From assembly GCA_014879845.1 (NCBI GenBank), contig JACSRI010000104.1, positions 1-50,986 of the forward strand: a DNA stretch of 50,986 nt, written 5' to 3'. The notes beneath the pieces were generated by a model. It was not told the DNA's origin. It saw nothing but the letters and a program-made list of their open reading frames with translations, and searched no databases. This stretch comes from Opitutaceae bacterium. GTDB taxonomy: Bacteria > Verrucomicrobiota > Verrucomicrobiia > Opitutales > Opitutaceae. The position numbers and the translations under genes were made by a program. Shown one piece after another: positions 3,192-6,529 of this stretch; the first letter of the stretch is position 1, and each line of letters begins with the position of its first letter.

Positions 3192-4280
3192 ATGATCAAA
3201 GTTTTCGTTTCCGGCTGCTACGACATCCTGCACGCCGGCCACGTACAGTTTTTCCGCGAAGCGCAGGCGCTGGGCGACCACCTCACCGTGAGCTTCGCCT
3301 CGGCCGAAGTGCTTTGGCTGCACAAGCAGCGTCGCAGCTCGATCCCCGACGATCACAAACGCGCCCTCATCGCCGCGATGCGCATGGTCGACGACGTCGT
3401 GATCGGCCGTGGCATGGAGGAAGGCATCGACTTCCGAGAGGACTTTCTGCGCATCCGTCCGCAGATTCTCGCCGTAACCGAGGATGACAAATACGCGCCG
3501 CTCAAGCGCGCCCTCTGCGCTGAAGTGGACGCGAAATACGTGGTGCTGCCAAAAACGCCGCCGGAGTTTTCGCCGATCTCGACGACCGAAATCGTTCGTT
3601 GGATACGCGCACCGCGCGAGGCGCCGCTGCGGGTGGATTTCGCGGGCGGCTGGCTCGACGTGCCGCGTTTTGCCCGTCCCGACGGCTACATCGTCAACTG
3701 CGCGATCTCGCCCACCGTTTCGCTCCGATCCTGGGGCTACGAGCGCAACGCCGGTCTCGGTGGAAGCGGCGCCTGGGCCCTCCTCAACGGTCGCGACGGC
3801 GTCGGCTCCGAGCTCGACCTCGGCGTTGGCTGGCAGGATCCCGCCGTGATCACCGAGGGCGGCCTCTGCGTCTGGCGCAGCGGTGCCCGCCCCGCCCTCG
3901 ATCTCAAAACCGACGGAGCGATCCTGCAGGGACGGATGGCGCTCTATTGGTCGGGCCGTCCGCATTGCACGCCCGACCTCGCGGGAGCCCCTCGCGACTA
4001 CGATGCCATCGCCCGAGCTGGCGCTGTTGCCCGCGACGCTGTCTGGAGACAGGACCTCCGAGCACTCGGCGAAGCGATCACGATGTCCTACGCCGTTCAG
4101 CGCGCCGAAGGCATGGATGCGCTCCCGGAGGACATTCCCGGCGCGCTGGCGTGGAAGTATTGTGGCGGCGGCTTCGGGGGTTACGCCGTTTACCTCTTCG
4201 CCAACGATGCAGCGCGCGACGCAGCAAGTTCGCGTGAGGGATTCCGACCGATCGAGCCTTTTGTCGGACATCCCGTGTAG
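3192..4280 (+). CDS. Nucleotidyltransferase-GHMP kinase fusion (sugar activation)
   Basis: The 362-residue protein joins two catalytic folds. Residues 1-135 are a cytidylyltransferase-like nucleotide transferase with [10 protein letters not shown] (the HxGH motif at residues 14-17) and the late ISTTEI motif near 130. From about residue 141 a GHMP-kinase-like domain follows: [17 protein letters not shown] (family motif 1), AGLGGSGAW (the phosphate-binding Gly/Ser loop, near 187-195), GWQDPAV, and a C-terminal [12 protein letters not shown] (motif 3). The GHMP part is about 220 residues, well short of the usual 320-350, so internal segments are missing. I infer a kinase plus nucleotidyltransferase pair that activates a sugar through its 1-phosphate. 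HldE does the same with a PfkB kinase at the N-terminus, the opposite order. Its neighbours gmd and fcl suggest fucose or heptose, but the substrate is not shown by the sequence. Confidence 0.8.
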
Positions 4281-4353: not shown

Positions 4354-5385
4354 ATGAAACGAGCCCTCATCACTGGCATCACAGGCCAGGACGGATCCTA
4401 CCTTGCCGAACTGCTGTTGGCCAAGGGCTACGAGGTGCACGGCATCATCCGCCGCGCCTCGACCTTCAATACCAGTCGCATCGATCACCTCTACCGCGAC
4501 CCGCACGTGAACGGTGTGCGCCTGTTCCTGCACTACGGCGACCTCGCCGACTCCGTGCAGATGGTGAAACTGCTCTACAAGCTCCAGCCCGACGAGATCT
4601 ACAACCTCGGCGCGCAGAGCCACGTGCGCGTTTCGTTCGATGTGCCCGAATACACCGGTGACGTCACCGGCCTCGGCGCGATCCGCATCCTTGAGGCGAT
4701 TCGCGAGGCGGGCCTCGTTGAGAAGGTGCGGTACTACCAGGCCTCGTCGTCGGAGATGTTCGGCAAGGTTCAGGAGGTCCCGCAGACGGAGAAGACACCG
4801 TTCTGGCCGCGGTCGCCATATGGATGCGCCAAGGTCTTCGCCCACTGGCTCACAGTCAACTACCGCGAATCCTACGGCATGCATGCGAGCAACGGCATCC
4901 TCTTCAACCATGAGAGCGAGCGCCGCGGCGAGACCTTCGTCACGCGCAAGATCACCCGCGCCGCCACCCGCATCGCCGTCGGACTCCAGAAGGAACTCTA
5001 CCTCGGCAATCTCGACGCCCGCCGCGATTGGGGCTACGCCAAGGAATATGTCGAGATGATGTGGCTGATGCTCCAGCAGGACAAACCCGACGACTACGTC
5101 GTGGCGACGAACGAGACGCACACGATTCGCGAGTTTTGTCAGGAAACGTTCGGCCGGCTCGGAATGGATTGGGAAAAGTATGTTCGCTACGACGCACGCT
5201 ACGAGCGTCCCGCAGAGGTTGACCTGCTCATCGGCGATCCCGCCAAAGCCAAACGCCAGCTCGGCTGGGAGCCCAAGGTGCGCTTCAAGGAACTAGTCAA
5301 GATCATGGTCGACCACGACCTAGAACTCGCCAAGCACGAGAAGGCCGTGGCCGCGCTCAAGACGCCGTTCGCGCCGATCGGATGA
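4354..5385 (+). CDS. gmd: GDP-mannose 4,6-dehydratase
   Basis: Converts GDP-D-mannose to GDP-4-keto-6-deoxy-D-mannose in the cytoplasm, the first step to GDP-L-fucose, GDP-rhamnose or GDP-perosamine. The 343-residue protein opens with the NAD(P) loop [16 protein letters not shown] and has the family-specific [15 protein letters not shown] segment. The catalytic region is SSSEMFG with [10 protein letters not shown] (YxxxK), followed by [15 protein letters not shown] and [15 protein letters not shown]. The frame is open further upstream, but the ATG at 4354 is chosen because it begins the Rossmann strand directly and has GGGAGG about ten bases before it. fcl follows after a 193-base gap, so GDP-L-fucose is the likely product of the pair. 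Confidence 0.97.
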
Positions 5386-5578: not shown

Positions 5579-6529
5579 ATGAGTCCCGACTCCAAGATCT
5601 TCATCGCCGGCTCCCGAGGCATGGTCGGTTCAGCCATCGTCCGCCGCCTGCGTGCTGGTGGCTTTTCCAACCTACTTACGCCGACGAGCGCCGAGCTCGA
5701 TCTTCGCAACCAAGCCGCCACACACGCCTGGCTCGCTGCCAATAAGCCCGATGTCGTCATCGTCGCGGCTGCGAAAGTGGGCGGCATCCACGCCAACAAC
5801 ACCTATCCCGCGGAGTTCATCGCCGAGAACCTGGCGATTGCTCTCAACTGCATCGATGGCTCCCACCGAGCCGGTGTCCCTCGCCTGCTCTTCCTCGGCA
5901 GCTCGTGCATCTACCCGAAGCACGCGCCGCAGCCGATGACGGAAGACTGCCTGCTCACCGGCCCCCTCGAGCCGACGAACGAAGCCTACGCCATCGCCAA
6001 GATCGCCGGGCTAAAGCTCTGTCAGTATTATCGGAAGCAATACGGCGTCCTCTACCACTCGCTCATGCCGACCAACCTCTACGGCCCGGGCGACAACTAC
6101 CACCCGAAGAATTCCCACGTCCTGCCCGCGCTCATCCGCCGATTCCACGAAGCCAAAGAGACCGGCGCGCCCGAAGTCGTTGTCTGGGGTACCGGCACGC
6201 CCCGGCGCGAGTTCCTCCACGTCGACGACCTCGCGGACGCGACCCACTTTCTGCTCAGCCTCGAAAGTCCACCCGACTGGATCAACGTCGGCACCGGTAC
6301 CGACGTGACCATCCGCGAACTCGCCGAGGTGTTCATGCACGCGGTGGGCTACACCGGTCGCCTCACCTTCGACACGACCAAACCCGACGGCACCCCTCGC
6401 AAGCTCATGGACGTCTCGCGCCTAACTGCGCTGGGATGGCACGCGAGAATTTCGCTTGAGGAAGGCGTGCGCCAGACCTACGCGGCGTTTCTCGGGGAAT
6501 TGCGCAGCGGTCGTCTCCGCGCAGTTTGA
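5579..6529 (+). CDS. fcl: GDP-L-fucose synthase (GMER)
   Basis: The bifunctional 3,5-epimerase/4-reductase that turns GDP-4-keto-6-deoxymannose into GDP-L-fucose, using NADPH. The 316-residue length is standard. The GxxGxxG loop is [15 protein letters not shown] (residues 9-23). The strand-4 motif is [18 protein letters not shown]. The catalytic Ser lies in [15 protein letters not shown], and the YxxxK motif in [18 protein letters not shown]. Substrate-binding signatures [15 protein letters not shown] and [18 protein letters not shown] are intact. It acts directly after Gmd, so this end of the locus supplies an activated L-fucose precursor. Confidence 0.97.

Follow-up and report, generated by a model that had tools for sequence, protein, structure and literature searches.

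A nucleotidyltransferase–GHMP kinase fusion of Verrucomicrobiota and phages as a candidate single-chain enzyme for converting free sugars to NDP-sugars

FKP of Bacteroides fragilis (5yys, 9iit) combines on one chain of ∼950 amino acids an N-terminal nucleotidyltransferase, which is a pyrophosphorylase of the Rossmann plus beta-helix type, with a C-terminal GHMP sugar-1-kinase. HldE also holds a sugar kinase and an HxGH nucleotidyltransferase on one chain, but its kinase is N-terminal and has the PfkB fold. Other enzymes resemble one half only: WcbL and HddA are single-domain GHMP kinases with motifs 1–3, and TagD, HldC, and ethanolamine-phosphate cytidylyltransferase (1coz, 5xf2, 3elb) share the HxGH fold and an STT motif, lack a GHMP domain and use a different acceptor. 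Here we analyze a gene of an Opitutaceae bacterium that fuses an HxGH nucleotidyltransferase to a truncated GHMP kinase domain. The gene lies on a stretch of 50,986 nucleotides (contig JACSRI010000104.1 of assembly GCA_014879845.1), the whole of which is called the window. We tentatively suggest that the fusion is a bifunctional sugar-activating enzyme that would, in the manner of FKP, convert a free sugar to a nucleoside diphosphate (NDP)-sugar, the likeliest sugar being L-fucose or a related 6-deoxyhexose. A preliminary description of this DNA proposed that a single protein would, by convergence, take a sugar to the NDP-sugar, and this still appears to be the best reading of the fusion.

Architecture and catalytic residues of the fusion

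The fusion gene (3192..4280, stop codon included; this and all features below are on the forward strand) starts with ATG and codes for 362 amino acids, an extent that is backed by homologues. The preliminary description had recognized on one chain an HxGH nucleotidyltransferase followed by a GHMP fold with motifs 1, 2, and 3, and this is borne out by a Pfam match, by a family profile, and by an AlphaFold model. The nucleotidyltransferase domain comprises residues 1–140 (3192..3611), of which residues 6–104 match the cytidylyltransferase-like family PF01467 with 32.7 bits (cut-off 21). Its catalytic motifs are intact (H14/H17, K45, K105, K121, S130-T131-T132), and H14 and H17 of the HxGH motif as well as S130 of the STT motif are invariant in 50 homologues. 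Residues 1–138 align structurally (VIA-align) with the HxGH nucleotidyltransferases 3glv (Z 17.6), Fom1 (5x3d, Z 17.1), and TagD (1coz, Z 16.8), and Foldseek matches the first domain to 3glv, TagD, and HldC (5xf2). The genome of the window also codes for a second small HxGH nucleotidyltransferase of 136 amino acids (L193:8348-8755, G000:C3), with a glycosyltransferase-like gene in the region.

Residues 141–362 (3612..4277) form the truncated GHMP domain, as delineated by the family profile and the structural alignment. No Pfam GHMP family matches the fusion protein or any of the 50 homologues, and in NCBIfam the sole signal of the kinase half is a 13.2-bit match to FKP (PRK13412/NF009948) at residues 143–172, below the equivalog cut-off of 721. 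At the sequence level, the family profile does find GHMP kinases in the PDB, namely mevalonate kinase (2hfs), HddA (3k85), FKP (9iip, 5yys), and WcbL (4usk). The AlphaFold2 model, computed on the alignment of 50 sequences, has a mean pLDDT of 93.4 and a pTM of 0.82. Its residues 138–362 align (VIA-align) with GHMP kinases at Z 17–21, mostly over 204–227 residues (8teb, 1s4e, FKP 9iip, WcbL 4usk); the best matches (Z ∼21 over 208–211 residues) are to the archaeal mevalonate kinase 8teb and the galactokinase 1s4e, and Foldseek matches the second domain to WcbL and FKP. With 222 residues compared with the usual ∼300–350, the domain is indeed about 100 residues short, as had been noted. The domain order is opposite to that of HldE, from which the kinase fold differs too, and the homologues surveyed keep the order nucleotidyltransferase–GHMP.

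That the open reading frame is an assembly artefact or a chance frame can hardly be true. The GC-rich window does contain long spurious frames on the opposite strand, but hundreds of homologues, mostly of full length, are found in independent genomes and phages, and because of these homologues this reading is already refuted. Scanning 84,980 species genomes turned up 293 stretches that encode relatives. The best 80 of these 293 all match over nearly the full length, and dozens of other Opitutaceae have full-length homologues at 70–80% identity; in the alignment of homologues the identity to the window protein is 42–80%. The full-length homologues of Opitutaceae exclude that two separate genes were joined here by a sequencing error. 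A search of the open literature for a described fusion of this kind returned nothing relevant, and a 2025 paper on FKP evolution mentions neither cytidylyltransferases nor Verrucomicrobia. The family is genuine and conserved and, as far as our tools show, uncharacterized.

The residues known to matter in the related kinases are largely retained. In FKP, R592, W599, D601, T602, Q761, and D762 touch fucose or the phosphate that reacts, E751 is indispensable, W599 stacks on C4–C6 of fucose, and the loop 712–720 holds the triphosphate, with S719 at the metal (PMC11982464). In WcbL, the mutants R13A, D22A, Q162L, and D163A and the triple mutant of S118–120 are all dead (PMC4691232). All three GHMP motifs are present in the fusion. 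Motif 1 (residues 145–158, 3624..3665) provides R147, W154, and D156, corresponding to FKP R592, W599, and D601. The glycine-rich phosphate loop of motif 2 (residues 186–196, 3747..3779) provides S192, corresponding to FKP S719 and WcbL S119. According to the alignment, E207 is likely the equivalent of FKP E751 and the GWQD stretch at residues 213–216 contains the equivalents of FKP Q761 and of the general base D762 (3810..3839). Motif 3 (residues 322–331, 4155..4184) was placed by alignment of homologues. R147, W154, D156, V157, S192, E207, Q215, and D216 are invariant in all 50 homologues. The fusion matches the FKP kinase residues R592, W599, D601, E751, Q761, and D762, keeps five of the six fucose contacts, the sixth (T602) being replaced by V157, and, like WcbL and HddA, has equivalents of R13, D22, Q162, and D163; of the loop serines 118–120 of WcbL, just one remains. 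W154, the counterpart of the sugar-stacking W599, occupies a position where HddA and WcbL have Gly.

The domain make-up, the fold, the conserved catalytic set, the deletion described below, and the gene context are established, and from them we infer activity, sugar, nucleotide, and phosphate donor as follows. A free sugar would be gripped by W154, D156, and Q215, and the GHMP domain would phosphorylate its anomeric hydroxyl with D216 as the base and with participation of R147, E207, S192, and Mg2+. The HxGH domain would then join the sugar-1-phosphate to a nucleoside triphosphate (NTP), giving NDP-sugar and pyrophosphate. Such a scheme would resemble that of FKP, except that the nucleotidyltransferase is of another type and the kinase is devoid of the usual adenine-pocket segment. 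The reverse sequence of events, in which the nucleotidyltransferase acts first and the GHMP kinase then acts on a nucleotide-activated compound, as IspD and IspE do in isoprenoid synthesis, would suit the domain order of the fusion, and IspE is a GHMP kinase that phosphorylates a CDP compound (PMC2655357). We nevertheless judge this order very improbable, as the fusion shares its sugar-contact residues with HddA and FKP, which are anomeric sugar kinases, and both the profile and the long form of the fusion (see below) retrieve these kinases and not IspE.

The shortened kinase domain and its possible phosphate donor

The largest single loss of the GHMP domain lies between motifs 1 and 2. The spacing from the motif-1 Asp to the glycine loop is 31 residues in 60 of 66 sequences and 26–37 residues in the long forms in which both motifs were found, compared with 79–80 residues in two HddA proteins and 112–116 in 16 FKP proteins from the same phylum. 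The short link from the second strand to motif 2 (3720..3752) thus misses ∼49 residues relative to HddA and WcbL and 82 relative to FKP, including the FKP adenine pocket. According to DSSP, a loop after the strand 166–176 leads straight into the motif-2 helix at residue 191. The base in FKP was modelled against D644, M645, P666, I669, and L722 (PMC11982464). Since the contacts at 644–669 fall between motif 1 (592–602) and the loop (712–720), the segment bearing them is gone in the fusion. The link itself is conserved, with W181 in 49 and Y183 in 47 of the 50 homologues, and these side chains might stack on a base. As to whether the GHMP sites are complete, a question raised by the preliminary description, the answer from alignment and secondary structure is divided: there is no variation in the phosphate loop, the metal ligands, the base, or the sugar site, but the FKP adenine-pocket segment is deleted in the whole family.

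Because the fold has lost this segment along with other parts, the nucleotidyltransferase alone could be enzymatic, with a GHMP remnant that binds sugar-1-phosphate or has a regulatory role. We consider this rather unlikely, as the homologues show no change in the general base, the Mg ligand, the Arg, or any of the three motifs. Moreover, some viral contigs carry the GHMP half alone with the catalytic residues intact (L252:5860-6669, within L254:5527-6660, and L258:6016-6777), and these retain all the residues just named with no nucleotidyltransferase. Given the synteny of L252 with the fused L253, the nucleotidyltransferase was most likely lost in L252. As judged from their sequences, the standalone viral copies argue that the GHMP half may act by itself. 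Besides its standalone short GHMP gene, L254 carries the first part of an HddA-like GHMP kinase (L254:11979-12638), together with GT6 and epimerase genes.

Alternatively, the phosphate donor of the GHMP domain might not be ATP but, for example, the pyrophosphate released by the nucleotidyltransferase, in which case the domain would need no adenine pocket. The segment with the FKP adenine contacts (644–669) is deleted in every member of the family while phosphate loop, Mg ligands, and base are invariant, and the partner domain produces pyrophosphate. On the contrary, W181 and Y183 of the short link could provide the stacking on a base, and WcbL contacts ATP mostly at the phosphates and the ribose (PMC4691232), so that ATP could still be used without the pocket. 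In addition, the standalone phage copies have no nucleotidyltransferase to supply pyrophosphate, and a search of the open literature found no paper on a pyrophosphate-using GHMP kinase. We consider a non-ATP donor quite improbable. The boldest version of this reading is a long shot: a GHMP sugar kinase without adenine pocket would use pyrophosphate recycled from its own nucleotidyltransferase, and Verrucomicrobiota would carry it and trade it with phages, a few of which hold the kinase half only. If true, free sugar would be converted to NDP-sugar at the cost of one NTP.

Candidate sugars for activation

Returning to an FKP-like activity of the fusion, we regard L-fucose or a similar 6-deoxyhexose as the best guess for the sugar because of W154, the gmd/fcl pair, and the exclusivity with FKP taken together. 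The gene gmd (GDP-mannose 4,6-dehydratase, 4354..5385; TIGR01472, 547.9 bits, cut-off 415) starts 73 bp downstream of the fusion gene and is the single gmd match in the genome. It is followed by fcl (GDP-L-fucose synthase, 5579..6529; NF047922, 495.5 bits, just under the cut-off of 500), and after fcl by an ABC-2 exporter permease, sugar-modifying enzymes, an aminotransferase, and a flippase-type gene; the locus is a surface polysaccharide cluster. The pair is not a chance of the window but recurs beside homologues in other families: Spartobacteria-type genomes have a homologue with fcl, gmd, a WecG-type transferase (wecG), a UDP-glucose dehydrogenase (ugd) and, as read by eye, sulphate-activation genes, and in L181, L184, L185, and L198 gmd and fcl are close to the divergent long form. 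The adjacent pair, to which the preliminary description had drawn attention, is in this sense meaningful. As a general partner of the fusion gmd/fcl was rejected, with gmd near just 14 of 159 loci, a hint and not a rule; in a control, gmd was near 2 of 20 FKP loci.

Among 387 sampled genomes of the phylum the short fusion is found in 61, a more distant and mostly longer relative with the same domain order (377–441 amino acids where read) in 41 further genomes, and FKP (NF009948) in 67. Fusions, short and long, and FKP co-occur in 1 genome compared with 17.7 expected, a figure that is inflated by lineage clumping and thereby weakened. Less affected is the overlap within the four families holding both (1 compared with 5.95 expected, P = 0.0013), for which the family sizes are the listed rows of the genome scans. 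This near-exclusivity fits one role filled by either enzyme. Two Opitutaceae have FKP homologues in very long frames of 2204–2354 codons (L277, L278), possibly larger fusions.

Several points weigh against our suggestion. Besides the lineage clumping just mentioned, the Opitutaceae copies are mostly not beside gmd (1 of 72 loci), and the FKP fucose contact T602 is V157 in the fusion, as in WcbL. To our knowledge no HxGH enzyme uses GTP, and the product need not be GDP-fucose. As far as the alignments tell, the adenine-pocket segment is deleted family-wide, and the binding of ATP should not be presumed. Finally, to judge from the standalone phage copies, the nucleotidyltransferase is dispensable.

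The preliminary description had left open fucose or heptose, and of the two only fucose, or another 6-deoxyhexose, has remained the best guess. The fusion would be an NDP-heptose enzyme if its GHMP half were a heptose-7-phosphate 1-kinase as HddA and its HxGH half a heptose-1-phosphate nucleotidyltransferase as HldC or HldE. The kinase half of the long form is in fact closest in sequence to WcbL/HddA (E 5.6e-22), and the nucleotidyltransferase half resembles HldE/HldC and PHROG 7878. Furthermore, in one group of phages, which bear clamp-loader genes (L116, L117, L120), a fusion of a HAD phosphatase with a Rossmann nucleotidyltransferase (457–458 amino acids) adjoins the gene or lies a few genes off. 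In the 99%-complete genome of the window, however, the best match to gmhA reaches 53 bits (cut-off 209.45), that to the HldE kinase 29 bits (cut-off 345), and no HddA-type GHMP kinase exceeds the cut-off, so there is no visible supply of heptose-7-phosphate; three other GHMP_C matches score 25–41 bits. W154 sits where HddA has Gly. The motif of heptose nucleotidyltransferases, HldE included, is (F/L)XXGXSTT (PMC11461863), whereas the window protein reads EFSPISTT, with P at the position of G. In Opitutaceae, moreover, the fusion and an HldE-type nucleotidyltransferase come and go independently. A heptose enzyme thus seems unlikely to us. As a replacement of HldE the fusion was likewise rejected, since Opitutaceae have it both with and without a strong HldE-type nucleotidyltransferase and show no complementarity.

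Relatives in other families and in phages

The longer relatives with nucleotidyltransferase and GHMP domains come from other families of the phylum (437–441 amino acids in L132 and L138; 377–385 in L133–L140), and in L133–L135 an Arg just ahead of STT recalls the promiscuity motif of heptose nucleotidyltransferases. Genomes of genus g38 (G021, G027, G030, G033, G063, G082, G111, G231) have two fusion copies each. The copies L040 and L064, titled as Myxococcales and as a gammaproteobacterial metagenome-assembled genome, branch deep within Opitutaceae in the tree and are probably mislabelled or contaminated.

Fusion loci were also found on viral contigs, 20 in one scan and 42 in a second, partly the same. 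Plasmids and the INPHARED phages gave matches to the nucleotidyltransferase half alone. In the tree of the GHMP half the bacterial sequences are nested inside a more diverse viral set, which points to a probable exchange of the gene between phages and bacteria. The phage gene is often beside glycosyltransferases. On the T4-like contigs L219–L231 its neighbours are a dGTP-diphosphohydrolase-like gene on one side and a glycosyltransferase-like gene (PF13712) on the other, and some of these contigs also have a separate HxGH nucleotidyltransferase and a cupin of the mannose-6-phosphate-isomerase type. On L219–L231 and L238 the order is queC, GATase, GNAT or another gene, the dGTP-diphosphohydrolase-like gene, the fusion, the glycosyltransferase-like gene, in some cases the HxGH nucleotidyltransferase and the cupin, and a DnaB-like gene; this set may be a modification module. 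We suggest that in the bacteria the activated sugar would be destined for surface polysaccharide, and in the phages probably for their own glycosyltransferases.

The fusion may yield small enzymes for the chemoenzymatic synthesis of NDP-sugars, and its deletion poses the question whether a GHMP kinase can work without the adenine-pocket segment, and with which donor. It spans Opitutaceae, Akkermansia-labelled and Spartobacteria-type genomes, and a broad set of phages, with a kinase half that has no family name. If the proposed activity is true, evolution would have arrived a second time, with this fusion, at the conversion of a free sugar to an NDP-sugar by one protein.
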